From positions 1-36,995 of the forward strand of contig JAVBXM010000028.1 in the NCBI GenBank assembly GCA_030824585.1: a stretch of 36,995 nt of DNA, written 5' to 3'. The number at the start of each line of letters is the position of its first letter. Position 1 is the first letter of the stretch. The translations under genes and the position numbers were made by a program. Below are positions 1 through 16,583 of this stretch, piece after piece. Under the pieces are notes generated by a model. It was not told the origin of the DNA, ran no database searches, and saw only the letters and a list, made by a program, of their open reading frames with translations. The stretch is from Phaeospirillum sp. (lineage in GTDB: Bacteria; Pseudomonadota; Alphaproteobacteria; Rhodospirillales; Magnetospirillaceae).

Positions 1-117
1 GATCTCGCAGATCACCTCGCCCGACTTGACCGCGTCGCCCTCGGCCTTCAGCCACTTGGCCACGGTCCCCTCGGTCATGGTCGGCGACAGGGCGGGCATC
101 AGAATTTGCACAGGCAT
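1..117 (-). CDS. 2-oxoacid dehydrogenase E2 component, lipoyl domain start (partial)
   Basis: This is the first 39 codons of a dihydrolipoamide acyltransferase (E2); the gene continues beyond the left edge. The peptide begins [17 protein letters not shown], the classic start of a biotinyl/lipoyl domain, and runs to SGEVICEI, just before the expected DKA lipoyl-lysine motif. The ATG at 117 lies 9 bp after the stop of the VOC gene, so it is the next gene of the same operon. E2 carries the acyl group from E1 on a swinging lipoyl arm to CoA. With the fused E1 at 664-2856 it should form a pyruvate-dehydrogenase-like complex; E3 is expected further left. In the Azoarcus/Thauera resorcinol-type clusters a comparable complex (BqdLMS, recalled from the literature) acts on the hydroxybenzoquinone intermediate. 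Acetoin or pyruvate dehydrogenase is the alternative. Confidence 0.9.
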
Positions 118-126
118 GGCGGGTCC

Positions 127-663
127 TCAGGTCGCGGGAAAGGCGGGATGCCAGAGGCGCGCCGAAGTCTCGCGCTCGTAGCCCTTGCCGTTGGGAAAGC
201 TCACCAGTTCGAGCTGCATGCCCCAGGGGGACAGGAAGTAGACCCAGGTCTGGCCGCCGTTGGGGCCGCTGGTCCTGACCGTCGGCTCGCCCAGGATGCG
301 GACGCCTTTCGACCGCAGATAGGCCACCGCGCCGTCCATGTCGTCCACGTAGAAGGCCAGATGATGCCCGCCCACGTCGCTGTTGGCGGGCTGGGTCCGG
401 TTCTGGCCGGGCGCCTCGTACTCGAACAGCTCGAAGTTGGAGCCATGGCGGCAGCGCAGGAACTTCAGCCGCCGCATGACCGTCCTGGGGGCGACGTTGA
501 GATGGGTGGTCATCCAGTCGTCCTCGGCCTGGAATGGCCCCAGCTCGTAGAACGGCTCGCAGCCGATGACGTCGACGAAAAACGTCACCGCCTCGTCCAG
601 GTTCGGTACGGTGAAGCCGATATGGTCGGTGCCCCTGAGGCCGGGCAGGCCCGATCCGCCCAT
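127..663 (-). CDS. VOC-fold (glyoxalase/bleomycin-resistance) protein
   Basis: A 178-residue vicinal-oxygen-chelate protein with two paired beta-alpha-beta modules (about residues 10-85 and 96-158). Candidate metal ligands sit at the usual places: His14 (DHIGF), Glu78 (NFELF), His100 or His101 (GGHHLAF) and Glu152 (MQLELVS). A His/Glu/His/Glu set fits glyoxalase I or methylmalonyl-CoA epimerase-like chemistry better than the two-His-one-Glu site of extradiol dioxygenases. The ATG follows the E1 stop codon directly (TAG then ATG), which implies translational coupling. Inside a presumed hydroxyhydroquinone-type operon it might isomerise or hydrolyse a ring-derived intermediate, or protect a quinone. 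The fold is clear; the reaction is not known from sequence. Confidence 0.85.
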   Translation of the reverse strand: MGGSGLPGLRGTDHIGFTVPNLDEAVTFFVDVIGCEPFYELGPFQAEDDWMTTHLNVAPRTVMRRLKFLRCRHGSNFELFEYEAPGQNRTQPANSDVGGHHLAFYVDDMDGAVAYLRSKGVRILGEPTVRTSGPNGGQTWVYFLSPWGMQLELVSFPNGKGYERETSARLWHPAFPAT

Positions 664-2856
664 CTATTCCGCCGCCAGTCTGAGGCCGGTCTCGGCCAGG
701 GCGCGGGCGAAGCCGGCCCGGACCTCCTCCTCGCCCACATAGGCGGCCCGCTCCAGCACCTTGGACACCGAGGGCGACGATTCGCCGCCATGGATGCGGC
801 CGACCGGCGCATCCAGCCAATCGAAGAAGCGGCGCTGGACCTCGTCGGTCAGCATGGCGCCATAGGAGACGGTCTGTCCGCCCTGCTCCAGCACCACCAC
901 GTTGTTGGTCTTGCGGATGGACGCGCCGATGGTCTCCCAGTCGAGGCCGGCGCGGTCCAGGGACCGCAGGTCGACCACCTCGATGTCCAGGCCGGCCGCG
1001 TCGGCCACCTTCACCGCCAGCGGCGTCATGGCCAGATAGGTCAGCACGGTGAGCCGCGAGCCGGGGCGCGCCACCTTGGCCTTGCCGAGCGGAATGAAAT
1101 AGTCCAGGTCCTCGGACGGCCCCGGGCCGGATGCGTTGTAGAGCCCCACATGCTCGATCACCAGCACCGGGTCCTCGCAACGGAGCGCACTGTTCATCAG
1201 GCCCACATAGTCGAAGGGAGTGGACGGCGCCACGATGCGCCAACCCGGCCAGGCGGCGTAAAGCCCGGCGGGGTCCATGGAATGCTGGGAGCCGTAGCCG
1301 GTGCCGATGGCGCACTTGCTGCGCAGCACCACCGGCATGGGGGCGTCGCCGCCGAACATGTGCCGCGCCTTGGCGATCTGGTTGAACAACTGGTCGGCGG
1401 CCACCAGGGCGAAATCGGCGTACATCAGCTCGATCACCGGCCGGTAGGTCCCGTCCATGGCGATGCCGCCGCCCACCCCGACGAAGCCCTGCTCGGAGAT
1501 GGGGGTGGGGACGATGCGGCCGGGAAAGCGGTCGAACAGGCCCTTGGTGGCACCGTTGGTGCCGCCCTTCAGGCGGTGGATGTCCTCGCCCAGAATGACG
1601 ATACGCTCGTCGGTCTCCATGCGCCGGGTCATCACGGCGGCCACCGAATCGATGAACTTCACCTCGGCCACCGGCCCGGAAGCGGTCTCCAGCTCCTCGT
1701 AGCGGGCGCCCGCGAACTCGGACAGGTCGCCGCGCAGGCCGTGGTCGCGGAATTCCGGCTTGGGCCACAGGGCCGGGACGATGCGGCGCCTGTTGCCGTC
1801 GGGCTCGGTCAGGCGCGACGCCGCATGGTCCATGGCCGTCTGGGCATTGGCGCGGATGGCCTGATCCTGGTCCTCGGACAGCCACTTGCGCCCGATCATC
1901 TCGGCGGCCATGCGGGCCAGGGGGTCGCGCTGGCGCCACGCCGCCTCCTCGTCCTTGGCACGATAGCCGAAGGCGCTGCCCGGCAGGCCGCCGCTGTGGT
2001 GGAAGTAGCGGTAGACGTCGGCCTCGATCACCGTCGGCCCCTCGCCGCTCCGCATGATCTTCAGGGCCTCCTCGGCGGCGAGGCGCACCGCCACCGGGTC
2101 CATGCCGTCCACCCGGAACGACGGGATGCCGAAGGCCGGGCCGCGCGACGACAGGCGCGGCTCGCGCGTCGCCTCGCCCAGGGTGGTGGAGACGGCATAG
2201 GCGTTGTTCTCGATGAAGAAGCAGATGGGCAGCCGCCACAGGGCGGCCAGGTTCATGGCTTCGGGCACCGCGCCGATATTGGCGGCGCCGTCGCCGAAGA
2301 AACTGAACACCACGTCGCCCCTGCCCTGGCGCTGCCGCGCCCAGGCCAGCCCGGCGGCCAGCGGCACGCCGCCGCCGACGATGGCGTTGGTGCCCTGCGC
2401 CCCGGCCTCGGTCCAGCGCAGGTGCATGGAGCCGCCGCGGCCTTTGCAAAAGCCGATGGACAACCCCATGATCTCGGCCAGCGAGCGGTGGAGAAAGTTC
2501 ATCACCTCGCCCGACAGCGGGTCGCTGGACAGGTCGGTGCCCGGCCGCTCCAGGTAGCGCAGGCCCTTGGCGAGGAACTGGTGATGCCCCCGGTGGGAGC
2601 CGGTGATGAGGTCCGAGGCGTTCAGCAGGGCGCAAGCGCCCACCGCGCCGCCTTCCTGGCCGATGCTGGAATGGGCCGGGCCATGGACCAGCCCCTCGCC
2701 CTCCAACTGCAGCACCGTCTCCTCGAAGGCGCGGATCACATGCAGGTGGCCCAGCATGCCGAGCAACCGGTCGCGACCCAGCGCCGTCCAGTCCTCGGGG
2801 GTGGAGCGCAGCTCGCGCCACGGAGCGTTCTGGGTAAGATCAATCATCTGTGCCAT
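664..2856 (-). CDS. 2-oxoacid dehydrogenase E1, fused alpha-beta subunits
   Basis: A 730-residue thiamine-diphosphate enzyme with the E1 alpha half (about 30-350) joined to the E1 beta half (about 395-725) in one chain. The alpha half holds the TPP motif from GDG (188-190) to NN (217-218). The beta half holds ISEQGF (Glu455), the usual TPP-activating Glu, and GSQHS (His525). In most bacteria the two halves are separate genes (acoAB, pdhAB, bkdAB). The frame stays open far upstream, but similarity begins at MAQMIDLTQ; AGGGAA lies upstream of this ATG and 11 bp separate it from the CobW stop, so I chose 2856. A GTG one codon earlier is possible. It should decarboxylate a 2-oxo or diketone-like acid and pass the acyl unit to E2. 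The resorcinol-type BqdL is my preferred comparison; acetoin dehydrogenase is the alternative. Confidence 0.88.
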   Translation of the reverse strand: MAQMIDLTQNAPWRELRSTPEDWTALGRDRLLGMLGHLHVIRAFEETVLQLEGEGLVHGPAHSSIGQEGGAVGACALLNASDLITGSHRGHHQFLAKGLRYLERPGTDLSSDPLSGEVMNFLHRSLAEIMGLSIGFCKGRGGSMHLRWTEAGAQGTNAIVGGGVPLAAGLAWARQRQGRGDVVFSFFGDGAANIGAVPEAMNLAALWRLPICFFIENNAYAVSTTLGEATREPRLSSRGPAFGIPSFRVDGMDPVAVRLAAEEALKIMRSGEGPTVIEADVYRYFHHSGGLPGSAFGYRAKDEEAAWRQRDPLARMAAEMIGRKWLSEDQDQAIRANAQTAMDHAASRLTEPDGNRRRIVPALWPKPEFRDHGLRGDLSEFAGARYEELETASGPVAEVKFIDSVAAVMTRRMETDERIVILGEDIHRLKGGTNGATKGLFDRFPGRIVPTPISEQGFVGVGGGIAMDGTYRPVIELMYADFALVAADQLFNQIAKARHMFGGDAPMPVVLRSKCAIGTGYGSQHSMDPAGLYAAWPGWRIVAPSTPFDYVGLMNSALRCEDPVLVIEHVGLYNASGPGPSEDLDYFIPLGKAKVARPGSRLTVLTYLAMTPLAVKVADAAGLDIEVVDLRSLDRAGLDWETIGASIRKTNNVVVLEQGGQTVSYGAMLTDEVQRRFFDWLDAPVGRIHGGESSPSVSKVLERAAYVGEEEVRAGFARALAETGLRLAAE

Positions 2857-2867
2857 CACGATATTCC

Positions 2868-3839
2868 CTAGCAGTGACCCTGGGCGGCTTTGCGCAGCCG
2901 GTCGCGGGCGGCCATGCCCTCGACCAGGGCGATGATCTCGTCGACCACGTGGCGGCCGATGCCCTGGGTGATGAAGACGATGCGGCTGCGGCGGTCGGCG
3001 CCGGGCCAGCCCTCCAGCCGGATGAGGTCGTGCAGAACCATCTGGGCGCCCTGAAGCACCATTGGCCGCTCGGGCTCGCCCTCGATGTTGAGCAGCCCCT
3101 TCACCCGCAGCAGGCCGGGGCCGAGGTTGTCCCTGATGGCGCGCAACAGCAGGTCCAGCGTATCCACCGCCATGGGGGTGTCGCGTACGATGGAGAACGA
3201 CCGGATGCCATGGCCGTGCCCCCCACCCGCCGTCTCGAACACCCGGCCCGGCAGATCGACCGGCAGGTCGGAGAGGTCGCACTGGTCGGGCAGGATGATC
3301 GCCGCCGCCGGATTGGCGGCGGACAAATCGCGGCGCAGCCCCTCCTCGGCGCCGGGGCAAAGGTCCAGCTTGGTCAGCACCACGCGGTCGGCCAGGGACA
3401 CCTGCCGCGCGCTTTCGGGCTGGGCCGCCAGGGTCGCCGGGCCGTTGACCGCGTCGACGGTGCAGACCACCGAGCCCAGGGCGTAGCGGGCCGACACCAC
3501 CGGATCGGTGAGGATCACCTGGATCACCGAGCCGGGATCGGCCAGCCCGCTGCACTCGATGGCGACGCGGGCGATGCCCGCCCCGGGACGGAAGCACAAT
3601 TCCCGCAAGGTCTTGACCAGATCGCCCTTCACGGCACAGCACAGGCAGCCGTTGGACAGCAGCACCACCGCGTCGTCGCTGTGGACGATCAGGTCGTGGT
3701 CGAGGCCGATATCGCCGAACTCGTTGACGATGACCGCCGTGCCGGTCCCCATGGGGCCGTTGAGCAGCCGGTTGAGCAGCGTCGTCTTGCCGCTGCCGAG
3801 ATAACCGGTGAGCACGGTGACGGGGATGCGCCGCTCCAT
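2868..3839 (-). CDS. CobW/COG0523-family GTPase (metallochaperone-like)
   Basis: A 323-residue G3E-type GTPase. Walker A is GYLGSGKTT (residues 12-20), the family metal-binding CxCC motif is GCLCC (Cys65, 67, 68), and [12 protein letters not shown] follows at 40-50. A His/Gly stretch (GGGHGHG) precedes the C-terminal CobW_C domain. Such proteins move metal ions (Zn, Co, Ni, Fe) to client enzymes using GTP. The ATG is 2 bp from the stop of the aldehyde dehydrogenase gene and the stop is 11 bp before E1, so it is cotranscribed. Its position suggests that it serves a metalloprotein of this operon: the M24 protein, a cupin, the VOC protein, or the molybdo-enzyme. Auxiliary maturation genes are reported in the Thauera 3,5-dihydroxybenzoate cluster (recalled). 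The client is inference. Confidence 0.88.
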
Positions 3840-3841
3840 GG

Positions 3842-5299
3842 TCAGCCTCCGATTCCGCCCATGCAGAGATACTTGATCTCCAGGTAGTCCTCGATGCCGT
3901 GCCTGGAGCCCTCGCGGCCCAGGCCGGATTCCTTGACGCCGCCGAAGGGGGCCACCTCGGTGGAGATCAGCCCCTCGTTGATGCCGACCATGCCGTATTC
4001 CAGCGCCTCGGCCACCCGCCACACCCGGCCGATGTCGCGGGTGTAGAAATAGGAGGCCAGCCCGAACTCGGTGTCGTTGGCCATGCGGACGGCCTCGGCT
4101 TCCGTCCTGAAGCGGAACAGCGGCGCCACCGGGCCGAAGGTTTCTTCCCGCGCCACCGCCATGGCGGGGGTGACGTCGGCCAGGATGGTCGGCTCGAAAA
4201 AGGTGCCGCCGCGCACGTGCCGCTTGCCGCCGGTCACCAGCCGGGCCCCCTTGGACAGGGCGTCCTCGATATGGGCCTCCACCTTGGCGACCGCCGCCTC
4301 GTCGATCAGCGGCCCCTGTTCGGCTCCGTCGGCGAAGCCGTCGGCCACCTTCAGCGCGATCACCGCGTTCTTCAGGCGGAAGGCGAAGTCGTCGTAGACG
4401 CGGTCGTGGACCAGGATGCGGTTGACGCAGACGCAGGTCTGGCCGGTGTTGCGGTACTTGGACGCCATCACCCCCTTCACCGCCGCGTCCAGGTCGGCGT
4501 CGTCGAAGACGATGAACGGTGCGTTGCCGCCCAGTTCCATGGAGGTCTTCTTGACCGTGCCGGCGCATTGGGCCATCAGCAGCTTGCCGATCTCGGTGGA
4601 ACCGGTGAAGGTCAGCTTACGCACCACCGGATTGGCGGTCATCTCGCCGCCGATGGCGGAGGCCGAACCGGTCACCACGCTGAAAATTCCCTTGGGAATC
4701 CCCGCCCGCTCGGCAAGCGCGGCCAGGGCCAGGGCGGAATACGGGGTCTGGCTGGCCGGCTTCAGCACCACCGGACAGCCGGCGGCCAGGGCGGCCCCGG
4801 CCTTACGGGTGATCATGGCGTTGGGGAAGTTCCACGGCGTGATGGCGGCCACCACGCCGATGGGCTCCTTGACCACCACGATGCGCTTGTCGGGGGCATG
4901 GGCGGGGATGGTCTCGCCATAGACCCTTTTCGCCTCCTCGGCGAACCATTCCACGAAGGAGGCGCCGTAAAGGATCTCCCCCTTGGCCTCGGCCAGGGGC
5001 TTGCCCTGCTCCGAGGTCAGGATGACGGCCAGATCCTCCTGGTTCTCCACCATCAGCTCGTACCAGCGCCGCAGGATTCTGGCCCGTTCCTTGGCGGTCA
5101 GCGCCCGCCATGCCGGCCAGGCGGCGTTGGCCGCCTGAATGGCCCGGTGGGTCTCGGCGCCCCCCATCCTGGGGACCGAGCCGAGCCGCTCGCCGGTGGA
5201 GGGGTTGCGAACCTCGATGACCTCGCCGCCGTCGGCGTCGCACCAATGGCCGCCCACATGGCATTGGCTCCGGAAAAGGCTGCTGTCCCTGAGTTTCAT
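3842..5299 (-). CDS. NAD(P)-dependent succinate-semialdehyde-type aldehyde dehydrogenase
   Basis: A 485-residue aldehyde dehydrogenase, full length for the GabD family. Visible landmarks are PWNFP (Asn157), [10 protein letters not shown] (Lys180), the catalytic base in MELGG (Glu255) and the nucleophile in GQTCVC (Cys289). [17 protein letters not shown] is the GabD/SSADH C-terminal signature. It oxidises an aldehyde acid to the acid in the cytoplasm. The start MKLRDSSLF at 5299 lies 11 bp after the M24 stop. In this operon it probably oxidises a semialdehyde made from the opened ring; succinate semialdehyde itself is plausible but unproved. A gabD label would assert a GABA role that the context does not support, so no symbol is given. 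Confidence 0.9.
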
Positions 5300-5310
5300 G
5301 TCATGCCCCC

Positions 5311-6564
5311 TCAGAACACGTCGCAGCCGGGCAGGCCGCAGGAGATCAGGCGATGCGACGGGAAGTTGGTGATGACCTCGCAGCCGGTCTTGGTGACCAC
5401 CACCTCTTCCTCGATGCGGGCCGCGCCGGAACCGTCGGCGGCGCCCTTCCAGGTCTCCACGGCGAAGACCATGCCTTCCTTCAGCACGGTGTTCTGGCCC
5501 TTGAAGCGGCGGCTGATGATCGGGCGCTCCCACAGGCTGAGGCCGATGCCGTGGCCGTATTGCAGCAAGAAGGCCTCTTCCTCGTTGCGATAGCCGAATT
5601 CCTCGGCCGCCGGCCACACCGAGGCCACTTCCTCCACCGTGGCGCCGGGACGGATGGCGTCGATGGAGGCGCTGATCCACCGGGACGCGGTCTCGTAGGC
5701 CTCGACCTGATGCTTGTTGGGCTCGCCGCAGACGAAGGTGCGGTAGTAGCAGGTCCGGTAGCCGTTGAACGAATGCATGATGTCCAGATAGACCATGTCG
5801 CCCGGCTGGATGATGCGGTCGGAAAAGGTGTGGGAATGGGGCGTGCCGCGCGGCCCGGCCACCGAGTTGATGCACTCCACCCGCTCCGAGCCCAGGCGGT
5901 AGAGCCGGTCGTTGGCGATGGCCACCAGTTCGTTCTCGCGCACGCCGGGGCGGATGGCCTTGCAGATGTCGTAATAGGTGGCGTCCACCATGCCGGCGGC
6001 GACCTTGAGCAGTTCGATCTCGTCGGGAGTCTTGATCTCGCGGGCGTCGAGCATGGCCTGCTGGCCATCCACCACCTCGATGCCTTCCTCCTCCAGGGCG
6101 CGCAGCATGGGAAGCTCCAGCAGGTCGATGCCCAGCGGCTTACCCTCGATACCGTAATGGGCCATCATCGCCCTGATCTGCTTGGCGAAATCGCCTTGCG
6201 CCCCCACCTTGGGCGGCAAGGCGCCCTGCATGTTGCTGATGGGAGCCCCCACCCGGTCGGCGATCCACGGCGAGCTGATGCGCTTGGCCGGCGGCGCCGG
6301 GTCCCACAGATAGGCCGGGCCCTCGGCCGGGCACAGGGCATAGCGGTCGAACTTGTCCCTGACCCACTCGCCGATATGGGTGCCGGTGATGTAGCGGACG
6401 TTGTCGACGTTGAAGCACAGCACGGCCCCCAGGCCGGCGGCCTTGACCGCCGCCTGGGCCCGGTCGAAGCGGTCCGAGATCAGGCGCTGGTAGTCGACGC
6501 CCTTTTCCCAATCCTTGGCCATCGTCCCCCAGGACGCGGTCGAATGCGGGCGATTGTACTTCAT
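5311..6564 (-). CDS. M24 (pita-bread) family protein with an altered metal site
   Basis: A 417-residue protein of the Xaa-Pro aminopeptidase/creatinase/DddP fold, with an N-terminal creatinase-type domain (about 30-175) and a C-terminal pita-bread domain (185-410). The M24 metal ligands are normally Asp, Asp, His, Glu, Glu. Here Asp261 (YLDIM), His338 (GHGIG), Glu370 (AVETW) and Glu385/386 (IEEEV) are present. The second Asp, 11 residues after the first, is Cys272 ([10 protein letters not shown]). It may therefore not be a standard dinuclear peptidase. Non-peptidase members act on creatine, ectoine or DMSP, so a small C-N, C-C or C-S bond substrate is possible. The start MKYNRPHS lies 20 bp after the stress-protein stop. 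The role in the operon is unknown. Confidence 0.85.
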
Positions 6565-6584
6565 GAGGAACCCTCCAGGGCCGG

Positions 6585-7388
6585 TTAGTGGGAGAACAGC
6601 ACGGGCAGCGTCATGTGCCCCAGCACATGGCGGAAACCCGGGCCGAAGGAAGAGAAGGGACCGTGGGTGCTGGCCCCCATGACCAGAAGATCGCCGCCGA
6701 TATCGGCGGCCCGCGACAAGAGCAGGTCCATCACCCCCACCTCCTCGCCGCGCAGGTGTTCCAGCCTGGCCTCGACGCCATTGGCGGCCAGGTGGTCGAG
6801 AACGCCCACCGGCGGCAGGTCCTCGGATGGCCGGCGGCCGTCGGGGCGGATGGCGGAATTCATCACCGCCAGGGTGACCGAGGCGGCCCGGCGCAGCAGG
6901 GGCAGCGCGTCGTGGACGGCGCGGGCGCATTCGCGCGAGGCGTTCCAGCCGACGATGATGTGCTCGCCGACGCTCTCGAACCGGCCATGGCTGGGAACCA
7001 CCACCACCGGCGTCCCCGAATGCAGGATGACCCTTTCCACCAGGGCGTCGGGCATATGCTGGCCGTCGCCCGGCTGCCCCAGGACGATCAGGTTGGAATA
7101 ACGGGCGCAAAAGGCGATTTCCTGCAGCAGGAAGTTCGGCTCGCCGTGCAGGAGTTCCATCCAGCGCCCATGATCGCCGTACGTCCGCTCGAAGAAGGTC
7201 CGCACGTCGTGCGAGGACGACAGCACGTAATCGCCGGGAAAGCAGGCGGTGACGTCGAAGTAGTTGATGCTGCTCTTGGCGAACAGGGCGGTCAGCCGCG
7301 CATCGAAGTGCCCGGCGATGGCGCTGGCGACGGCAAGCCTTGCCTCGCTCGCCCCCGGTTCATCCACGTGAACGATGATGTCCCGCAT
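6585..7388 (-). CDS. tandem universal stress protein (UspA family)
   Basis: A 267-residue cytoplasmic protein with two Usp folds. The first runs from MRDIIVHVDEP to about residue 145; the second starts at HIIVGWNASRE and ends LPVLFSH. Both halves have the alternating beta-alpha pattern. The second keeps a glycine-rich nucleotide motif (MGASTHGPFSSFG), suggesting ATP/AMP binding there, while the first half is degenerate. Usp proteins buffer stress and often sit in catabolic operons with no enzymatic step. It lies between livF (14 bp upstream) and the M24 gene (20 bp downstream). A role in tolerance of reactive phenols or quinones is inference from position only. Confidence 0.85.
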   Translation of the reverse strand: MRDIIVHVDEPGASEARLAVASAIAGHFDARLTALFAKSSINYFDVTACFPGDYVLSSSHDVRTFFERTYGDHGRWMELLHGEPNFLLQEIAFCARYSNLIVLGQPGDGQHMPDALVERVILHSGTPVVVVPSHGRFESVGEHIIVGWNASRECARAVHDALPLLRRAASVTLAVMNSAIRPDGRRPSEDLPPVGVLDHLAANGVEARLEHLRGEEVGVMDLLLSRAADIGGDLLVMGASTHGPFSSFGPGFRHVLGHMTLPVLFSH

Positions 7389-7402
7389 GCTCGTACCCCC
7401 GA

Positions 7403-8116
7403 CTAATGCCTGGCCTTGGACTGGCCGCCGGCGCCGATCAGGTCGGCCATCAGGACCTGATCGTTGCGCAGCCGCTCGGAGTCGCCGCTGAACACCACCC
7501 GTCCACGGTCCAGCACGATGGTGGTGGGCGAGAAGTTCAGGGCGAGGTTGACGTATTGCTCCACCAGGATCAGGGCCAGGTCGCCGTCCCGCCGCAGGGC
7601 ATGGAAGGCCTCGAGCAATTGCTCGACGATCACCGGGGCCAATCCCTCCATGGGCTCGTCCAGCAGCAGCAGCGAGGGATTGCCCATCAGGGCGCGGCCG
7701 ATGGACAGCATCTGCTGCTCGCCGCCGGAAATTTCGGTGCCCTTGTTGCCCCGGCGCGCCGACAGGTTGGGAAACAGCTCGAACACCCGCTCGATGGTCC
7801 ATTTCCCCGGGCGGGCGGCGATGCGCAGGTTCTCTTCCACGGTCAGCGACGGAAAGACGTCGCGGGTCTGGGGAACGTAGCCGATGCCCATCCGCGAGCG
7901 CCGGTAGGAGGGTTGCCCGGAGATGGTCTCCGACCCGAAGCGGATGTCCCCCTGGCGCAGCCGGGTCTGTCCGACGATGGTCTTCATCAGGGTGGACTTG
8001 CCGACGCCGTTGCGCCCCAGCACCGCCAGCAATCCGCCGGGCGGAAGGCTGAGGTCGACGCCCTCCAGAATGACCGTGTGGCCGTAGCCGGCGGTGACTC
8101 CCTCAAGCCGCAGCAT
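7403..8116 (-). CDS. livF: branched-chain-type ABC transporter ATPase LivF
   Basis: A 237-residue ABC ATPase. Walker A GRNGVGKST is at 34-42, the signature is SGGEQQ, Walker B is LLLLDEP, and the short length and YVPQTRDVFPSLTVEENL block are typical of LivF. It energises uptake through the LivH/LivM channel. Its ATG lies inside the end of livG (14-bp overlap), so the two are translationally coupled. In alphaproteobacteria this HAAT class imports amino acids but also aromatic acids, amides and urea. Within a presumed phenolic operon, an aromatic acid or phenol is the likely cargo. No periplasmic binding protein gene is present in this window. Confidence 0.92.
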   Translation of the reverse strand: MLRLEGVTAGYGHTVILEGVDLSLPPGGLLAVLGRNGVGKSTLMKTIVGQTRLRQGDIRFGSETISGQPSYRRSRMGIGYVPQTRDVFPSLTVEENLRIAARPGKWTIERVFELFPNLSARRGNKGTEISGGEQQMLSIGRALMGNPSLLLLDEPMEGLAPVIVEQLLEAFHALRRDGDLALILVEQYVNLALNFSPTTIVLDRGRVVFSGDSERLRNDQVLMADLIGAGGQSKARH

Positions 8117-8870: not shown

Positions 8871-9868
8871 CGCCGGCCTCCCCGTCCCAGATTGCGCCGA
8901 AGACGCTCCACCAGGCCGAGCACGCCGCCCGGCACGAACAGGGTCATGACCATCAGGATCAGGCCCTGGCCCAGATACCAGTTGGCCGGGTCCTCCTTGG
9001 CCAGCAGGTCCTGGGCGAACATGAACAGCGGCACGCCGACGAAGGCGCCGTACAGCCGCCCCGAACCGCCCAGGATCAGCATGATCAGCACGTCGCCCGA
9101 CAGTTCCAGGCTGAGGGAATTCAGGGCGACGAACTGGGTGGTCTGGGCCTGGAGCGCCCCCGCCAGCCCGGCCAGGGCCGAGGACATCACATAGGCGGCG
9201 AGGCGGCGCGCATAGATGGGGCAGCCGATGGCCCGCATGCGGCCGTCATTCTCGCGGATGCCGCGCAACGACCAGCCGAACGGGGAGTTGACCACCCGGC
9301 GGACCAGCAGGAAGGCGGCGAACAGGCAGGCCAGGCTGTAGTAGAACGCCGTGTGCCCCCTGAAATCGAACTCGAACACGCCCAGCAGGGGCGAGAAGCT
9401 GACGCCCTGCAGCCCATCGTCGCCGCCGGTCACCGAACTCGCCATGTTGGCCAGTTCGTGCAGCATGAAGGCGGCGGCCAGCGACAGCACCAGGAAGGCC
9501 AGCCCCTTGGTGCGCAGCATGCAACTGCCGGTCACCAGCCCCACCAGGGCGGCGGCGGCCATGCCGCACAGGGCGGTGATCAGGGGATCGTTGGTCAGCC
9601 GCAGCGCCAGGATGCCGGCGGTATAGGCGCCGGTGCCGAACAGGGCGGCATGGCCCAGGGTGACGATGCCGGTGAAGCCGACCAGCAGGTCGAGCGACAG
9701 GGCGAACAGGATCATCACCACCATCTGGTTGGCCAGCGGCGTGTAGCCGGGAACCAGGGTGGGGATCGCCAGGGCGGCCAGCCACAGCGACATGGACAGG
9801 GCCTTCCTGGTTCCCGAGACGCCGTCCGGCGGCAAGAGGAGGATGGCGGCGGTCGATCGGTCGGTCAT
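8867..9868 (-). CDS. livM: branched-chain-type ABC transporter permease LivM
   Basis: A 333-residue inner-membrane permease. After a charged N-terminus it shows about eight to nine hydrophobic helices, with the family block GFTGIVTLGHAALFGTGAYT at roughly 64-83 and the cytoplasmic loop RGIRENDGRMRAIG. LivM forms the translocation pore with LivH. The stop overlaps the livG start by 4 bp, and the gene begins 10 bp after livH. The full family length is present. The solute is unknown; an aromatic acid is inferred from the operon. Confidence 0.92.
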   Translation of the reverse strand: MTDRSTAAILLLPPDGVSGTRKALSMSLWLAALAIPTLVPGYTPLANQMVVMILFALSLDLLVGFTGIVTLGHAALFGTGAYTAGILALRLTNDPLITALCGMAAAALVGLVTGSCMLRTKGLAFLVLSLAAAFMLHELANMASSVTGGDDGLQGVSFSPLLGVFEFDFRGHTAFYYSLACLFAAFLLVRRVVNSPFGWSLRGIRENDGRMRAIGCPIYARRLAAYVMSSALAGLAGALQAQTTQFVALNSLSLELSGDVLIMLILGGSGRLYGAFVGVPLFMFAQDLLAKEDPANWYLGQGLILMVMTLFVPGGVLGLVERLRRNLGRGGRR

Positions 9869-9878
9869 GGGGGCCTCC

Positions 9879-10739
9879 TCAACGCTTGCCGGTGATGCCG
9901 TTCGGCCGCCACAGCAACAGGGCGAAGACGAAGGCGAAGATGAACACGGAGCCCATTTCGGGAAGCAGGTATTTGCAGGCGGTATCGGCCAGCCCGATGG
10001 ACAGCGCGGCGATGAAGGGCCCGCGAATGCTGCCCAGTCCGCCCACCGCCACCACCACCATGAAGTAGACGATGTAGTGGAGCGGGTAGTTGGGGGCGAT
10101 GGCCAGCACGTCGGCGCCCAGCGCCCCGCCCAGGGCGGCCAGTCCGGTACCCAGGCCGAAGGTGACGGCGAACAGCCGGCCGGTGTCGATGCCGATGGCC
10201 TGGGCCATGCCCCGGTTGTCCACCGCCGCCCGGATGCGCGCCCCGAACAGGGTGCGTTCGAAGATCACCCACAGGGCGACGATCACCGCCGCCCCAAAGG
10301 CCACCAGCACGAAACGGTAGGTGGGCAGTTCGATGCCGCCGACCAGCGACTGCCCCTTCAGGTAGTCGGGCAGTTGGACCGGCTGGGCCATGGGTCCCCA
10401 GATCAGCCGTACCAGGGCCATGGAGATCAGGATCAATCCCATGGAGAACAGGACCTGATCCAGCTCCGACCGCCCGTAGAGACGGGAATACAAGGTCCGC
10501 TCCAGGACGAAGCCGACGACGGTGACCGCGAGGCAAGCCAGGGGAAGCGCCGCGAACAGCGACATGCCCGTTTGGTTCATCAAGGTCACGGCGGCATAGC
10601 CGCCCAGCATGGCGAACACGCCGTGCGCCAGATTGACGAACCCCATCAATCCCATGGTGACCGACAGGCCCACCGAGATGAGATAGAGAATCATCCCGTA
10701 GGCCACCCCGAAGAACAGCACCGTGACAATGGCCGTCAT
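9879..10739 (-). CDS. livH: branched-chain-type ABC transporter permease LivH
   Basis: A 286-residue inner-membrane permease with the LivH block SVGLSVTMGLMGFVNLAHG near the N-terminus and eight or so helices. I took MTAIVTVLFFG (ATG at 10739) as the start because the purine-rich GGGGAGACC lies just before it. A GTG at 10775 would add 12 residues but falls inside a hairpin. The ribosome-binding region contains a run of nine G (plus-strand C, 10745-10753) and, further up, seven A. The 75-bp gap to the preceding cupin gene is the largest in the operon and contains an 11-bp stem, so livH may be expressed at a different level from the enzymes upstream. Confidence 0.9.
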   Translation of the reverse strand: MTAIVTVLFFGVAYGMILYLISVGLSVTMGLMGFVNLAHGVFAMLGGYAAVTLMNQTGMSLFAALPLACLAVTVVGFVLERTLYSRLYGRSELDQVLFSMGLILISMALVRLIWGPMAQPVQLPDYLKGQSLVGGIELPTYRFVLVAFGAAVIVALWVIFERTLFGARIRAAVDNRGMAQAIGIDTGRLFAVTFGLGTGLAALGGALGADVLAIAPNYPLHYIVYFMVVVAVGGLGSIRGPFIAALSIGLADTACKYLLPEMGSVFIFAFVFALLLWRPNGITGKR

Positions 10740-10774
10740 GGTCTCCCCCCCCCATTCGCTTTTTTTGATTTCCA

Positions 10775-10804
10775 CCCGGTGCCGGCCTCCCGACCGGCAC
10801 CGGG
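10775..10804 (-). other. intercistronic hairpin before livH
   Basis: A perfect 11-bp inverted repeat, CCCGGTGCCGG (10775-10785) and CCGGCACCGGG (10794-10804), with an 8-nt loop. On the transcribed minus strand it is followed by GTGGAAATCA and an A run, not a U run, so it is not a classic terminator. It probably slows exonucleases or tunes read-through between the enzyme genes and the transporter. Confidence 0.7.
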
Positions 10805-10814
10805 CGTCCTCGGG

Positions 10815-11165
10815 TCAGCTCGCCGGCGAGGGAACCACCAGATGGAAAAGCTTCAGGGGAGAGCCTCCCTTCTGGCTGATGCTGGCGGCCTCGGAAGGAC
10901 CGAGATAGATGCCGGCGCCGGTGCCGACCTCGTAATCCTTGCCGTCCAGGCGGATCACCCCCTGGCCTTCCATCAGGTAGACGACCTGATGGGTGGTGTC
11001 GTCCGACTGGGCGTCGAGGCTCTGGCCGGCTTCCAGCCAGCGCAGGCTGCCCACCACGCTCTTGGCGCCGCACAGGGCGTCGTTGAGAATCTCGGCATAG
11101 CGCCCCTGGCCGCCGTCGAGGCTGACGGGGGTGATCTTGTTGGTGTCGATAAAGCTCGTGGTCAT
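10815..11165 (-). CDS. small cupin-domain protein
   Basis: A 116-residue single-domain cupin. The barrel is visible as LRWLEAGQSLDAQ, HQVVYLMEGQGVIRLDGKDYEVGTG (in part) and GIYLGPSEAASI. It keeps the turn glycines of the fold but has only one His (before QVVYLMEG) of the usual HxH...E...H metal set, so it may bind no metal, or bind ligand rather than metal. The ATG at 11165 follows the other cupin stop by 28 bp. In related anaerobic dihydroxybenzoate clusters small auxiliary proteins are suggested to stabilise intermediates (recalled); that role is inference here. Confidence 0.78.
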   Translation of the reverse strand: MTTSFIDTNKITPVSLDGGQGRYAEILNDALCGAKSVVGSLRWLEAGQSLDAQSDDTTHQVVYLMEGQGVIRLDGKDYEVGTGAGIYLGPSEAASISQKGGSPLKLFHLVVPSPAS

Positions 11166-11193
11166 TGCTTGCGTGCTCCCTTGCCCGATTGGT

Positions 11194-11610
11194 TCAGCTC
11201 TGGACCCAGACCCGTCCGTCCACGCGCTCCCAGCGCAGGTCGTCCTCGGTCCCGTCCAGGATGGTGGTCTTGAAGCGGTTGGGAGCCTGGAACTCGAAAT
11301 AGAACAGCGCGTCCTTCGAGGCCCGCAGGCGGTGCTTTTCCTCGGCGGGGATGAAGACCATGGTGCCGGGCCCGACCGGGGTGACGCCCTCGGGGGTCTC
11401 CACCTCGCCATGACCGGTCATGATGAAGTAGAAATGCTCGCAATTCTCATGGAAGTGATAAGGCGAGGCGGCGCCGTGCTTGTAGCGCATGATTCCGCAC
11501 AGGAGATCATCGACATTGGCGAGCTCCTTGTTCACGAAGAACACCCGCTCGCGCCCGGGAACCACCGAAACAAGCTTCGGAAGTTCATTCTCTTGAAAAA
11601 TATACGCCAT
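11194..11610 (-). CDS. metal-binding cupin protein
   Basis: A 138-residue cupin with a complete metal site: His52, His54 and Glu58 in PYHFHENCEHFYF (motif 1) and His93 in PAEEKHRLRAS (motif 2). That is the mononuclear Mn/Fe/Ni/Zn set used by cupin isomerases, decarboxylases and dioxygenases. The second, less complete cupin lies 28 bp downstream, so the two may form a heteromer or act in sequence. The ATG at 11610 is 35 bp after the dehydrogenase stop. Candidate roles are decarboxylation or isomerisation of a hydroxylated aromatic acid, or handling of a labile quinone. Specificity cannot be read from the sequence. Confidence 0.82.
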   Translation of the reverse strand: MAYIFQENELPKLVSVVPGRERVFFVNKELANVDDLLCGIMRYKHGAASPYHFHENCEHFYFIMTGHGEVETPEGVTPVGPGTMVFIPAEEKHRLRASKDALFYFEFQAPNRFKTTILDGTEDDLRWERVDGRVWVQS

Positions 11611-11645
11611 TCAATCCTCCACTGGATATTCGGTTGATTCTTGAA

Positions 11646-12569
11646 TCAGATGCCGGGATCGACGTCGACGTTCTCGGGCTCGAGGCGCAGGCCGGCGGCC
11701 TTGGCCTCGACCTCCAGCAGGGCGGCGAAGTCACAGTCGCCGTAGCCCTGGCCGATCATGGATTGCAGGATTTCGCGAACCTGGGCGGCCAGCGGCAAGG
11801 GGACCTCCAGGGTGCGGCCGGCGGCCAGGCCCAGGTCCAGGTCCTTGCGCAGCAGCACCGGCGTGAAGGTCGGCTTGAAGTCGAGGTTGACGTAAGCCGG
11901 CGCCTTGTAGCGGGTGAACATGGACCCCATCACGCTGTTGTTGATGAAGTCGAGGAAGGCGTGGCGGGAAACCCCGCCCCTCTCCGCCAGGATGGTCACC
12001 TCGGCCAGGGACTGGGCCACCACGCCGAGAAAGACGTTGTGGCAGATCTTGACGATGCGGGCCGCCTCGCCCTCACCCACATAGGTGGCCGCCTTGGCCA
12101 TCAGGTGGAGATAGGGACGCGCCATCTCGAAGGCGCCGGCATCGCCGGACGCCACGATGGAAAGCTTGCCGGCCTCGACCACCTTGGCGTTGCCGCTGAC
12201 CGGCGCGTCCAGCATGACGGCGCCGCGCTGGGCCAGGGCCTTGCGCACCTCGGCCGAGGCCTCGGCGGACACGGTGGAGAAATCCACCAGCAGGCGCGGC
12301 GCCCTGCCCTTGCGCGACAGCAACCCGTTGGGGCCGCACACCATGTCGACGAACACGTCGGAACTGGACAGATTGGTGAAGACCACGTCCCGGTCGGCCA
12401 GATCGGACGGCGTCTCGGCCAGACGGGCCCCCAGGGCGGCCAGGGGCTCGGCCTTGGCGCGGGTGCGGTTGTAGACGGCGACGTCGAGGCCCGCCGCCAG
12501 CAGCCGGGCGGCCATGGCCGATCCCATCCGCCCGACGCCGATCCATCCGATGGTGAGGTCAGGCGTCAT
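11646..12569 (-). CDS. NAD(P)-dependent beta-hydroxyacid dehydrogenase (3-hydroxyisobutyrate dehydrogenase family)
   Basis: A 307-residue oxidoreductase. The Rossmann motif GWIGVGRMGSAMA is at 8-20, with NRT after beta-2 (residues 34-36) favouring NADP. The substrate-binding DAPVSGN is at 121-127 and the catalytic Lys174 lies in RIVKICHN. The C-terminal all-helical domain is present (FINNSVMGSMF, LLRKDLDLGLA). The family interconverts beta-hydroxyacids and semialdehydes (3-hydroxyisobutyrate, tartronate semialdehyde). ATG at 12569 is used; a GTG at 12578 would overlap the previous stop as GTGA and add three residues, and no strong Shine-Dalgarno decides between them. It may reduce or oxidise a C3-C5 fragment of ring cleavage. 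Confidence 0.85.
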   Translation of the reverse strand: MTPDLTIGWIGVGRMGSAMAARLLAAGLDVAVYNRTRAKAEPLAALGARLAETPSDLADRDVVFTNLSSSDVFVDMVCGPNGLLSRKGRAPRLLVDFSTVSAEASAEVRKALAQRGAVMLDAPVSGNAKVVEAGKLSIVASGDAGAFEMARPYLHLMAKAATYVGEGEAARIVKICHNVFLGVVAQSLAEVTILAERGGVSRHAFLDFINNSVMGSMFTRYKAPAYVNLDFKPTFTPVLLRKDLDLGLAAGRTLEVPLPLAAQVREILQSMIGQGYGDCDFAALLEVEAKAAGLRLEPENVDVDPGI

Positions 12570-12574
12570 GGCAG

Positions 12575-13429
12575 TCACGCCGCCGCCGAGGCAAGGGTGA
12601 TCACCCCGAGATAGGCCGATTGCCCCAAGGTGACGTCCAGAGTGCCGGGGACGAAGCCGGACTTGCGGATTTCCAGGCGATAGGCGCCGCTGCCCTCGCC
12701 CAGCCCGTCGAAGCGGAAGTCGCCGAAGGTGTCGGTCACCGTCTCGGCCACCTTGCGGCCATCGCGCACCAGGGAGACGGCGGCACCGGCGATGCATTCC
12801 TCGATTCCGGCGACGGGGCCGGCCACCGAGCCGCCGACCAGGGCCTTGGTGTAGCGGTCCAGGTTCCTGTAGTAGACCCGGGGCCTGGTCCCGGCCTCGG
12901 GCTGCAATACCTCCAGCCCCTCGTCCTTGACCAGGCGGCGCATCTCGTCGTCGGTGACGTGCAGCGTGCGGATGGCCTCGGTGGGACACGATTGCGAGGC
13001 GCGGACCTTGGTCCAGCCGGCATCGAGCAGATGGGCGTCGAAGGGCCAGGCCTGGGGCAGGCTCTTTTCCTCGTTCCACCACACGGCGCCGTAGGGACAG
13101 GAATCGACGATCTGGCGCTGGCCCTTGGCCTTTTCCGGCACGATGACCACGATGCCGTCGGGACGCTTTTCGACGGCGCCGTTGCGTGCCGCCTTGAGGC
13201 AGGGGGCGTCGTCGCAGTGATTGCAGGTCACCGGCAGGGTGACCACGTCGATCATGGGATAGACGCCGCGTTCGCGCTGGATCAGGTCGATCCAGCGATG
13301 GCCCAGGCGCGGCATGGACGCGGAAATTCCGGGGAACTCGTTGTCGTAGTACTCGTCATGCACGGCCAAGGCGCAGTTGTTGCAGTTGAAGCACTTGGCG
13401 ACGTCGATGATCAGGTTCCACTTCTTCAT
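12575..13429 (-). CDS. iron-sulfur subunit of a transhydroxylase/resorcinol-hydroxylase-type molybdoenzyme
   Basis: A 284-residue electron-transfer subunit. Residues 1-165 are a ferredoxin-like module; residues about 205-284 form a beta-rich carboxypeptidase-regulatory/transthyretin-like domain (AGAAVSLVRDG, TDTFGDFRFDGL). This layout matches the beta subunit of Pelobacter pyrogallol-phloroglucinol transhydroxylase and the RhS-type subunits. Only eight cluster cysteines are seen: Cys13, 16, 19 with Cys148 (SCPTEA), and Cys69, 72, 77 with Cys111 (SCPYGA). That fits two [4Fe-4S] clusters; the other cysteine positions of motifs I-IV are replaced. There is no twin-arginine or other signal, so it is cytoplasmic. 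The ATG is 11 bp after the catalytic subunit stop, consistent with a stoichiometric complex. Confidence 0.88.
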   Translation of the reverse strand: MKKWNLIIDVAKCFNCNNCALAVHDEYYDNEFPGISASMPRLGHRWIDLIQRERGVYPMIDVVTLPVTCNHCDDAPCLKAARNGAVEKRPDGIVVIVPEKAKGQRQIVDSCPYGAVWWNEEKSLPQAWPFDAHLLDAGWTKVRASQSCPTEAIRTLHVTDDEMRRLVKDEGLEVLQPEAGTRPRVYYRNLDRYTKALVGGSVAGPVAGIEECIAGAAVSLVRDGRKVAETVTDTFGDFRFDGLGEGSGAYRLEIRKSGFVPGTLDVTLGQSAYLGVITLASAAA

Positions 13430-13440
13430 GGCAATGCCTC

Positions 13441-16400
13441 CTACTGCGCCGGGACCAGGACGGGAGCGGCCTTGGACACCGGCTCGGCCTTGGCGGCCGC
13501 CAGGGTCAGTTCGGCCTTGCCGTCCCATATCTCCACCTGCACCAGGCAGGAATTGGCGGCGGTGCCGGTCACCTTCTTGGCGATGGAGCGTTTCGGGGTG
13601 AGCTGGTTGACACAGCCGCCGCGATCGACGGAATAGCCGGGCTCGCCGATGGGATCGTAGACCGCCGAGGATTCGTAGGCGTGCACGGCGCCCTGGGGCA
13701 GGCGGTTGGTGACGTGGGCGGCGCACAGGACGGCGCCACGGTCGTTGAACACCTTGATCAGGTCATGGTGCTTGATGCCGCGCGCCTTGGCGTCCAGTTC
13801 GTTGATACGCAGCACCCAATAGTAATAGCCGTCGATCAGGACGCGGTGTTCCTTGATATCGTTGACCGCGCTCTGCTTGCCGTCGCTCATGGTGTGGTAG
13901 CTGAAGCGCGAGTGGGGCGAGATCAGCTGAAGCGGATAATGCTCGTAAAGCTCGGTGCCGGGGCCTTCCCACGAGCGCAGGTACTTGACCACGGGCGGAC
14001 GCTCGGGATCGTCGGCGTCGAAGCGTTTCAGGCTGTTGCACTCGAACTCGAACTTGCCGGTCTGGGTCTGCAGGCCGTTGAGGAATTCCTGGCTGTAATC
14101 GGCGGGCAGCGGATGGGGCTCGGGAACGTCCTTCTTGCGGCCCTCGTAGAACCAGCGCAGAGCCACCGGATCGCGGTGCTTCTCGTCCAGGGCGGGGACA
14201 ACGAAATAGCCCCGCTTCAAAAACGCCTTCCAGGAGATGTGCTTGGGCAGGTCCGACGAGTCGAACATGCGCTTGACCCAATCCAGCTCGGTCTGGCCCT
14301 CGGAGAAATAGGCGGACAGCCCGAGACGGGTGGACAGGTCGAGGAAGATCTGGAAGTCGGACTTGGACTCCCCCAGGGGTTCGATGCACTTGTGCTGCAA
14401 CAGGATGACCCGGTGGTTCATCTGGGTCTGGCCGTGCAGGGCATAGCCGCCGGTACCGCCGAACTCGCTGATGTCCCAGCGTTCGAACTGGGTGCAGGCC
14501 GGCAGGATGATGTCGGCGAACTTGGCCTCGCCCTCGAACCAGATGGACTGGTTGACCACGAATTCCAGCTTGTCGGTGCGGTACGCCTTAACGTAGCGGT
14601 TGCTGTCGTTCATGGTGCCGAGCGAGGCGCCGCCGATCTTGTACATCATCTTGACCGGCGAGTGGCCGGCCGCCGGGTAGGTGAACTTGCGGAACTGGCC
14701 TTCCAGGGTCTTGCCATCCCAGGGATAGCCCTCGGCCTTGCCTTCCAGGATGGCTTCGGGAATCTGCAGCCGCGGCACTTTCTGGGTGGCGGTGTTGTAG
14801 GTGGGCAGTTGCGGCATGCGCTGGTACAGGCTGATGGCCAGGCCGGTGGCCTCCAGGTCGCCCGACAGACCGCCGTCGGCGTAGCCGGGGAAGAAGAAGC
14901 GGATGTCGATGGGGGTGCCCCACTGCATGTGGCCGTAATTGACGCCCGGCCGCCCCATGCCCTGCATGCCCATCAGGCAGGCCAGGGTGCGCGCCCACTG
15001 GATGCCGGTGGCCGAGCGGCAGGCGCCGCCATGGCCGTTGCCCCAGCCGCCGGCGCCGAGATAGGTCTTCTTCCGGCCCCACTGGCGCGCCAGGGCACGA
15101 ACCTCGCGGGCCGAGATGCCGGTCTCGGCCTCCTGCCATTCCGGGCTTTTGGCGATGCCGTCTTCCTTGCCCAGGATGTAGTCGGCCCACTTGTCGAAGC
15201 CGACGGTGCGCTCGGCGACGAATGCCTTGTCGTAGAGCCCCTCGGTCAGCCAGACATGGGCGATGGCGAAGGCCATGGCCGGATCGGTGCCCGGCTTGGG
15301 CGCCAGCCACTTGCCGCCGATCAGGGTGGCGGTGTTGTTGTAATAGGGATCGATATGGACCACCTCGATGCCCAGGTCCTTCAGCCACTGGCGGCGCGAG
15401 GTGCCCTCGAAGGCGGCGTACGAGCCGCTGGTGGTCTCGGGATCGGCCGACCAGAAGACCACCATCTCGGCCTCCTGCATCAGGTCCTCGACGCAGTTGT
15501 AGGTCTCGGTCTGGCCCAGCCGCATGCTGTAGCCGAAATGGTGCATGGCGCCCCAGTACCAGCCTTCCCAGCTATCGGGATTGTGGGCGACCTTGGTGTA
15601 GCCGATGGTGTTGAAGAACTTGAAGGCCGAGCTGATGTAGTAGCCCAGGTTGCCCCAGGTGTGGTGCGAGCCGTGGGTGCCCATGATGGCGCCCTGGCCG
15701 TGGTCGCGCTTCACCCGCTTGATCTCGCCGGCGACGATGTCCAGCGCCTCGTCCCAACTGATCCGCTCATAGCCGGAAATGCCGCGGTTCTCGCAATTGC
15801 GCTCGCCGTTGGGGTCGAAATCGACGCGTTTCATGGGATAGAGCAGGCGGTCGGGTGAATAGAGCGTCGACTTGTGGCAGGTGGAGTGCGGCGCCAGGGT
15901 GGTCTTGCGCGGCGGCGTGAAGGTCTTGCCCTTGGCCTTGATGGTCCACGAGGGCGCGTCCTCGTCGGTGAACTCGATGGGGGTGAGGCGGATGACCTTG
16001 CCGCCCTTGACGTAGACGAACATCGGCCCGCCATTGGTGTGCGAGACGTAGCGGGTGGTGCCGTCCGGCATCTTGGTGCCGAACTCCAGGCCCTGCTGCT
16101 GCATGATCATCAGCGTCTGGGTGAACCACAGGGTCAGTTCGTCCGGCCCCTCCAGCATCATCTGGAAGTTCTTGATGGCCTCGATCTGGGCCAACTGGTC
16201 GATGGGCGGCAGCAGCAGCGAGGCGCCCAGCTCGGCCGTGGCGAAGGACAGGACAACCTCGGGCCGGGCGTGGATGCCCTTGCCCGACAGCACCTTGCCG
16301 CCCTTGAAGGTGAACCAGCGGCCGGCGCTGCCATCGGCCACCTTCATCTGGGCGGTGAAGTTCTTCTCTTTCAGCCGCTTGGCGAATTCCGGATAACGGG

Positions 16401-16470
16401 CAGCCTGGAAGCGCAACGCCTGCGCCAGACCGAACAACAGCACCGAGAATTTCATGCCACCCAAGCTCAT
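13441..16470 (-). CDS. molybdopterin catalytic subunit, pyrogallol transhydroxylase/resorcinol hydroxylase type, with N-terminal extension
   Basis: A 1009-residue molybdo-bis-MGD enzyme of the DMSO reductase family. The catalytic part (about 195-970) lacks the N-terminal CxxC cluster site, as in Pelobacter transhydroxylase. The Mo ligand is predicted as Ser300 in HNPDSW. Asp299, His269 and Tyr530 fall where transhydroxylase Asp174, His144 and Tyr404 are expected (numbers recalled; near-constant offset of 125-126). Residues 1-180 are an extra domain that resembles an SCP2 sterol-carrier fold ([31 protein letters not shown]). There is no Tat signal. It should hydroxylate a di- or trihydroxybenzene without O2, using water or a polyphenol co-substrate. 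GGAGAGG precedes the ATG at 16470, and it is the first gene of the operon. Confidence 0.88.
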
Positions 16471-16570
16471 CGCGCCTCTCCGTCCATCGGCCTCGGCGTC
16501 GACAGCTCGGGGGCTGCCAGTGGAGGCCTCTCACATTGGATGGCTTGATGATATCGACCCGGCGTTCTCC

Positions 16571-16583
16571 ATCTGATGCAGAT
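16571..16583. promoter_or_regulatory. candidate operator upstream of the molybdoenzyme operon
   Basis: ATCTG-ATG-CAGAT, a perfect 5-3-5 inverted repeat, lies about 100 bp before the ATG of the first operon gene, in the 178-bp stretch left after the LysR terminator-like hairpin. The position fits a LysR-type recognition site for the regulator encoded at 16701-17612, although a 13-bp repeat can arise by chance. Confidence 0.3.

Follow-up and report, generated by a model that had tools for sequence, protein, structure and literature searches.

The 36,995-bp contig C222 of the Magnetospirillum genome G000 (4.94 Mb), analysed at its whole length and referred to below as the window, carries sixteen consecutive minus-strand genes, running from 16470 down to position 1, which by their spacing and synteny appear to form a single operon, and which we consider likely to encode a variant of the oxidative hydroxyhydroquinone (HHQ) pathway that acts on an aromatic compound with two or three hydroxyl groups, under anoxic and probably nitrate-reducing conditions. 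The genes follow one another at intergenic distances of -14 to +75 bp and, in the order of transcription, encode the large and small subunits of a transhydroxylase-type molybdoenzyme (THL and THS), a HIBADH-like dehydrogenase, cupins A and B, the LivH, LivM, LivG and LivF components of an ATP-binding cassette (ABC) importer, a universal stress protein (Usp), an M24 protein, a succinate-semialdehyde dehydrogenase (SSADH) family enzyme, a CobW-type GTPase, a fused E1 of the type found in pyruvate dehydrogenase (PDH), a VOC protein and an E2, the last represented by 39 codons only (117-1), since the contig ends inside its gene. An earlier interpretation made without database searches (the sequence-only reading) had proposed this gene run with its overlaps and short gaps, its families, an alphaproteobacterial host and the coupling of the molybdoenzyme to a PDH-like complex in a resorcinol/dihydroxybenzoate (HHQ) type of pathway. 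The run was recovered at the same place and strand, the families were confirmed for the ten genes submitted to profile searches (the LivHMGF names come from translation, synteny and the naming of that reading), the host is a Magnetospirillum, and the coupling is borne out by the matches to structure 4v4c, by the co-encoded E1 and E2 and by a fused E1 that tracks THL across genomes; the type of pathway is supported as well.

The hydroxylase carries the first part of this assignment. THL (13441..16470, on the minus strand as are all window features for which coordinates of single genes are given below), a bis-molybdopterin guanine dinucleotide (bis-MGD) enzyme (PF21423), matches the Pelobacter pyrogallol hydroxytransferase (4v4c_A, its closest solved chain) over 846 residues with 1025 bits, and is identical to it in the alignment at His144, Tyr152, Asp174, Ser175, Trp176, Tyr404 and Tyr560 (Pelobacter numbering), which we take to be the catalytic positions. 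It possesses about 140 N-terminal residues more than the Pelobacter enzyme, and the AlphaFold model of this domain (built from 32 aligned sequences; mean predicted local distance difference test score 90.6) gave as best Foldseek matches, for residues 1-140, alkylsulfatases (E 3.5e-5), which presumably carry an SCP2-like domain, and SCP2 proteins such as UbiJ (E 3.9e-5, TM ~0.6). The Pfam SCP2 profile matched weakly in 3 of the 32 members, and a Pfam search of this domain in the window's own THL returned no match; an SCP2-like fold is the prediction that the model favours. The small subunit THS (12575..13429; closest solved chain 4v4c_B, E 7.8e-70) retains eight of the twelve cluster cysteines of its Pelobacter counterpart, and the four that are lost (Cys23, 126, 129 and 145) would, on the assumption of canonical ferredoxin pairing, be the four ligands of one cluster. 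Four random losses would coincide with one whole cluster in 0.6% of cases (a post hoc figure that treats the losses as independent). Among 24 aligned THS sequences, Cys126 and Cys129 are missing from 20 and all four residues from 8, and the complete set of twelve is present in 4 (two accompanied by the THL N-terminal domain and two not). The iron-sulfur protein of the window is predicted to hold two [4Fe-4S] clusters. The same kinship could be taken to mean that THL/THS is a transhydroxylase producing phloroglucinol on a phloroglucinol/pyrogallol route, with the PDH-like genes unrelated to it, as the closest solved enzyme and the conserved active-site residues would have it; the added SCP2-like domain, the four cysteines missing from one cluster and the co-occurrence of the fused E1 with THL speak against such a route, and, as the sequence-only reading had remarked, none of the window proteins read was recognised as a phloroglucinol reductase (the genome was not searched for one). 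On account of the E1 co-occurrence and of the absence of a recognised reductase from the window we rejected this route, which we regard as very unlikely.

The second part of the assignment rests with the fused E1 (664..2856), in which the alpha and beta halves of a thiamine diphosphate (ThDP) dependent 2-oxoacid dehydrogenase are joined (PF00676, PF02779 and PF02780); by its domains and its position in the tree it is a candidate ring-cleaving, BqdL-like component. Among 60 related genomes (this one included), an E1 of at least 73% identity was found in 5 of the 6 that bear THL and in none of the 54 without it, one of which (G782) showed merely a 41% match to the beta half; the THL of G791, whose genome is 63% complete, is 63% identical, partial and interrupted by one stop. 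A set of 45 genomes, drawn from the best 80 of 569 THL matches, repeated the pattern (E1 of at least 74% in 5 of 12 genomes with THL of at least 73%, and in 0 of 33 others; Fisher p 6.5e-4), as did 60 genomes assembled around a Sterolibacterium metagenome-assembled genome (MAG), where an E1 of at least 72% accompanied THL in 8 of 22 genomes (17 from the family draw and 5 from the order draw) and was found in 0 of the 38 without a THL match (Fisher p 1.2e-4), the E1 match of one of the latter being 39% identical. In the E1 tree, which we used for its topology and not for statistics by THL label, the sequences of at least 72% identity form one group (support 95/93) with the exception of L155 (basal, unresolved), and ten plasmid-borne E1s make up the neighbouring clade (91/96); the former group is also represented in genomes from the family of the Sterolibacterium MAG. 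The distant E1s L162, L156, L157 and L158 come from THL-holding genomes, the genome of L047 also holds THL, and the plasmids L050 and L245 carry THL elsewhere on the plasmid. The THL tree in turn contains two separate lineages paired with the fused E1: clade A, to which the window belongs (12 of its 21 rows), and three genomes at 57-58%, whose THL adjoins an E1 of 72-74%; two of these three also showed E2 and E3. Row labels in this tree differ in their basis (L010 was labelled from its flanks only, L207 by its locus though the genome holds E1, and three rows with another E1 were not assessed genome-wide).

The E1 and E2 could instead represent an acetoin/diketone or housekeeping-type dehydrogenase residing in the operon by chance, in agreement with the PDH-like domains of the E1 and with an E2 apparently duplicated not long ago from that of the housekeeping PDH. 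The fused E1 nevertheless scores far under the curated NCBIfam cut-offs for PDH E1 (253 vs 394 bits and 227 vs 454 bits), its subfamily co-occurs with THL, and genomes of alpha- as well as betaproteobacterial type have a VOC gene separating E1 from E2 (G768, G802, G809, G811 and G1518). By reason of these scores the E1 was rejected as a housekeeping PDH, and the rival as a whole is in our opinion improbable; a housekeeping origin, one part of what the sequence-only reading had said would undo its proposal, applies to the E2, which is of PDH lineage, and not to the E1.

Split E1 genes also occur near THL (L121, L123, L114, L220 and L229), as a second, non-orthologous pairing: separate alpha and beta genes, SSADH and E2 precede THL in L121 and L123, L114 is arranged likewise with one E1 piece at the edge of the locus, and in L220 a split E1, E2 and E3 precede THL. 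That every THL serves this pathway was a proposition we rejected, as the 8 other THL genomes in a class sample of 385 had no fused E1 in the flanks read (flanks processed by simple gene calling, which could miss genes and picked shadow open reading frames in GC-rich loci). A phylum sample of 398 genomes contained only the present genome at E<=1e-200, and the THL search of plasmids returned 8 records, none from Azoarcus or Thauera.

On plasmids, the fused E1 (55-64%) was found in nine annotated regions (Pseudomonas oryzihabitans, Caballeronia, Phaeobacter, Rhodovulum and others), read from the PLSDB annotation tables, which are incomplete. These resemble the operon in having E2 (8 of 9), Liv-type importers (5), E3 (4), SSADH (4) and VOC between E1 and E2 (2), and differ from it in that no THL or THS is annotated beside the E1 and in that genes for short-chain dehydrogenases/reductases (SDR) are present in 7 of 9; Salipiger and Cupriavidus plasmids carry THL away from the fused E1. 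With shikimate-dehydrogenase-like genes in 4 regions besides the SDR and SSADH genes, this clade is what lends weight to an alicyclic route, in which the module would degrade a cyclic polyol-derived diketone and THL would be a reductase or dehydroxylase acting on another substrate; the second molybdoenzyme Mo2 described below, whose class includes catechol dehydroxylases (PMC7028382), would then likewise be a dehydroxylase. Since the nine regions have no THL/THS, Mo2 or M24 annotated beside E1, and no SDR or GMC gene was recognised in the window operon, we give this explanation scarcely any credence.

The gene set of the proposed HHQ pathway is largely retained in relatives. Two other Magnetospirillum genomes preserve the gene order (G753 and SS-4, the latter being G750; protein identity 80-99%): G753 has every gene from THL through VOC, where its contig ends, and SS-4 is without Usp and has its M24 gene in two frames around an undetermined base. 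Of 17 genomes of the genus, 3 contain E1 together with THL (the present one, SS-4 and G753), by which we regard the operon as accessory. A member of the same family (G768) unites Mo2, LysR, THL, THS, HIBADH, cupins A and B, LivK-HMGF, M24, SSADH, E1, VOC, E2 and E3, without Usp and CobW, and the betaproteobacterial-family genome G1518 (from the same family as the Sterolibacterium MAG) holds THL, THS, cupins, M24, Mo2, E3, SSADH, CobW, E1, VOC, E2 and LysR, together with a transporter that reads as TRAP-like (named without a profile). The sequence-only reading had seen the accessory genes as new to this locus; as M24, CobW, SSADH, VOC and both cupins recur in this betaproteobacterial relative, they are not peculiar to it. 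Usp (6585..7388; named by that reading from the translation, with no profile search) is 80% identical in G753 and had no match in the stretches of SS-4, G768, Telmatospirillum or G1518, and was for this reason rejected as a member of the conserved set. In the Telmatospirillum MAG an AFOR-type aldehyde oxidoreductase (L173:6239-7969; PF01314 and PF02730) lies between M24 and CobW, at the place expected for SSADH, for which no match was found on the stretch read. A Pseudorhodoplanes MAG (L100, 4131 to locus end) also brings together Mo2, CobW, M24, LysR, THL, cupins and THS, and the E1 match of its genome is only 40% identical.

Conservation extends to unusual residues of the accessory proteins. 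The M24 (pita-bread) protein (5311..6564; PF00557) reads GYRTCYYRT where prolidase has GYNSDMTRT, so that Cys stands in the place of one canonical metal-ligand Asp (in 11 of 11 aligned sequences) and the canonical ligand set is incomplete. Cupin A (11194..11610; PF07883, 42 bits) has an HxH...E...H metal motif that is kept in 12 aligned relatives, and cupin B (10815..11165; a weak PF07883 match under its cut-off) is without the HxH. The SSADH-family aldehyde dehydrogenase (3842..5299) exceeds its curated cut-off (NF008415, 850 vs 828 bits), the CobW-type GTPase (2868..3839; PF02492 and PF07683) is a probable metallochaperone, and the remaining proteins are the VOC/glyoxalase-fold protein (127..663; PF13669/PF00903), the HIBADH-like beta-hydroxyacid dehydrogenase (11646..12569; PF03446 and PF14833) and, by translation and synteny, the importer ATPases LivF (7403..8116) and LivG (8103..8870) and permeases LivM (8867..9868) and LivH (9879..10739).

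The E2 gene of this genome is present as two fragments on two contigs (it is complete in relatives such as G768): its first 39 codons, the start of a lipoyl domain by translation, are cut by the end of the window (1..117), and contig C205 opens (1-99) with the last 33 codons of an E2. Thereafter C205 encodes a nitroreductase, a thioesterase (on the opposite strand), the 713-residue molybdoenzyme Mo2 (C205:1698-3836, in the same genome as the window and 95% like its SS-4 equivalent) and LivK, and the same order follows the operon E2 of SS-4 without a break. The closest solved structure to Mo2 is acetylene hydratase (E 2e-101), and we put it forward as a candidate HHQ dehydrogenase by homology, with a dehydroxylase as the alternative; an acetylene-hydratase-class homologue belongs to the Thauera 3,5-dihydroxybenzoate operon, where its loss impairs growth, and the class is grouped with catechol dehydroxylases (both from PMC7028382). 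Contig C57 has at its end the 119 bp that also stand at the end of C205, and from there continues into the gene found after the PDH E2 of another Magnetospirillum (G752), and the operon E2 of SS-4 is 90% identical to a second E2 located 37 kb away (84% over a longer stretch), the two being sisters in the tree (99/96). Given these near-identical sisters and the 119 bp common to C57 and C205, the operon E2 in this genus is best interpreted as a recent duplicate of the E2 of the housekeeping PDH, and its reading as a pathway-specific subunit is not supported. The SS-4 copy (L056:609-1484, 291 amino acids) starts past the lipoyl domain and so has none; the window E2 begins with one. No E3 was recognised in the window, and neither the initial 20 kb of C205 nor the 14 kb of SS-4 that were read gave an E3 match. 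Of the two items that the sequence-only reading had proposed to look for left of position 1, E3 and an HHQ dehydrogenase, a candidate was found for the latter (Mo2). The clusters of G768, G809 and G1518 do include an E3, and a housekeeping E3 could serve the complex here.

Building on the gene content, conservation and homology described so far, we propose the following course of catalysis, each step of which is conjectural. LivHMGF, together with the LivK of C205, would import the substrate, and THL/THS would add a water-derived hydroxyl to the ring at its Mo-bisMGD centre (chemistry taken from the family), the electrons leaving through the two iron-sulfur clusters and possibly reaching a quinone that the SCP2-like domain would hold. 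The acetylene-hydratase-like Mo2 would then oxidise the HHQ-type product to a hydroxybenzoquinone, whose ring the fused E1, the E2 and a shared E3 may cleave by ThDP chemistry, yielding an acyl group on lipoate/CoA and an aldehyde end that the SSADH-family enzyme would oxidise. Such an aldehyde end is suggested by the SSADH-family genes that adjoin E1 in the split-E1 loci and in 4 of the 9 plasmid regions. M24, the thioesterase, HIBADH and the nitroreductase might finish the sequence or adjust the oxidation state, with CobW loading metal into M24 or cupin A. The presence of an importer in the operon suggests an anionic substrate such as a dihydroxybenzoate, and two clade-A loci (in the Sterolibacterium MAG's order, from genomes that have no fused E1) are close to amidohydrolase-2 genes and to one gene of UbiD type, possible decarboxylases that would fit dihydroxybenzoates.

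Several observations weigh against the oxidative HHQ pathway as formulated here. Nine of the 21 clade-A hydroxylases come from genomes (several of them MAGs) in which no such E1 was found, and the nine plasmid E1 regions, having no annotated adjacent hydroxylase, mean that the E1 alone is no proof of an aromatic substrate. Mo2 need not be a dehydrogenase, because its class includes catechol dehydroxylases, which are reductases (PMC7028382), and the complex must borrow parts, as there is no adjacent E3 in this genome and no lipoyl domain in the SS-4 operon E2. Furthermore, no dedicated decarboxylase (of amidohydrolase-2 or UbiD type) was recognised in the window operon, M24, the cupins and HIBADH have no assigned step, and the HHQ assignment is one by homology and gene context.

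Known systems invite comparison. Azoarcus anaerobius reportedly degrades resorcinol via HHQ by means of rhLS and bqdLMS, that is, a transhydroxylase-family hydroxylase and a PDH-like ring-cleaving complex (Darley 2007), and Thauera aromatica AR-1 is reported to possess a 3,5-dihydroxybenzoate pathway (Molina-Fuentes 2015). The likeness to Azoarcus lies in these two elements of gene content; its regulators are reportedly enhancer-binding proteins, whereas the Magnetospirillum operon has a LysR gene and, unlike Azoarcus, an ABC importer and two cupins inside the operon. Resorcinol breakdown is described as proceeding via HHQ (PMC10470551), and the resorcinol hydroxylase RhL is placed in the Ser-ligated group (PMC10100899). 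With the Thauera cluster the window shares a molybdoenzyme of the acetylene-hydratase/catechol-dehydroxylase class (PMC7028382) and a LysR regulator (DbdR, going by a paper title); the two differ in genus. The Pelobacter transhydroxylase (4v4c) is homologous in both subunits over most of their length with its active-site residues kept, and the Magnetospirillum enzyme differs from it by the added SCP2-like domain, by the loss of the four cysteines of one iron-sulfur cluster and by its companion PDH-like complex.

The LysR-type gene (16701..17612; NF007307, under its cut-off), in line with the LysR regulators that the sequence-only reading had mentioned for the known pathways, lies 230 bp upstream of THL on the same strand, adjoins the same genes in G753, SS-4 and G768 and is the presumed regulator of the operon; the intervening region (16471..16700), partly conserved in G753 and SS-4 in a three-sequence alignment, is likely to contain the promoter and a regulator site. 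A methyl-accepting chemotaxis protein lies next to the regulator (17661..19799; NF058645, under cut-off); 425 of its residues recur at 88% in the same position in G753, up to the end of that contig. A second chemotaxis receptor was read at 21442-23178, right of the operon, and 23195-36409 is occupied by a second cluster of aromatic-acid type, with genes for LysR, a muconate-cycloisomerase-family protein, two CaiB-type CoA-transferases, a CoA ligase, two acyl-CoA dehydrogenases and an acyl-CoA-ligase (ADP-forming type) protein, and one that reads as a major facilitator superfamily transporter; it also has a p-hydroxycinnamoyl-CoA hydratase/lyase, whose score exceeds the curated threshold (426 vs 276 bits).

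On a broader scale, we entertain as a tentative and rather doubtful idea, all of its parts being taken jointly, that the operon exemplifies a broader class of ThDP/lipoate complexes that cleave rings and have so far gone unrecognised. In this class the fused E1 would split cyclic acyloins or 1,2-diones, the aldehyde end being taken up by an aldehyde dehydrogenase; one branch would handle anaerobic aromatics after a molybdenum hydroxylase and a sister branch alicyclics, the split-E1 versions with the same hydroxylase family would have arisen separately, and the hydroxylase electrons would go to a quinone on the SCP2-like domain, which would replace the third iron-sulfur cluster.

To our knowledge, the oxygen-free oxidative cleavage of phenolic rings is known experimentally from very few denitrifiers. 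We found no description of the pathway in Magnetospirillum in the literature searched, which did not include the diversity paper of Pacheco-Sanchez 2019, so that an earlier report is possible. The new details are the SCP2-fold domain predicted on the hydroxylase, the loss of iron-sulfur cluster cysteines, the Cys-for-Asp M24, the seemingly PDH-derived E2 and the plasmid E1 clade. Taken together, Magnetospirillum, Telmatospirillum, other Rhodospirillales and betaproteobacterial-family genomes have a large part of the gene set in common, and this shows what genes make up the pathway, in which a pathway E1 is paired with a borrowed housekeeping E2; the fused E1 and THL constitute a usable marker pair for it. 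Testable targets are the Cys-bearing M24, the metal cupin A, the SCP2-like domain and a ThDP complex possibly able to open carbocycles.

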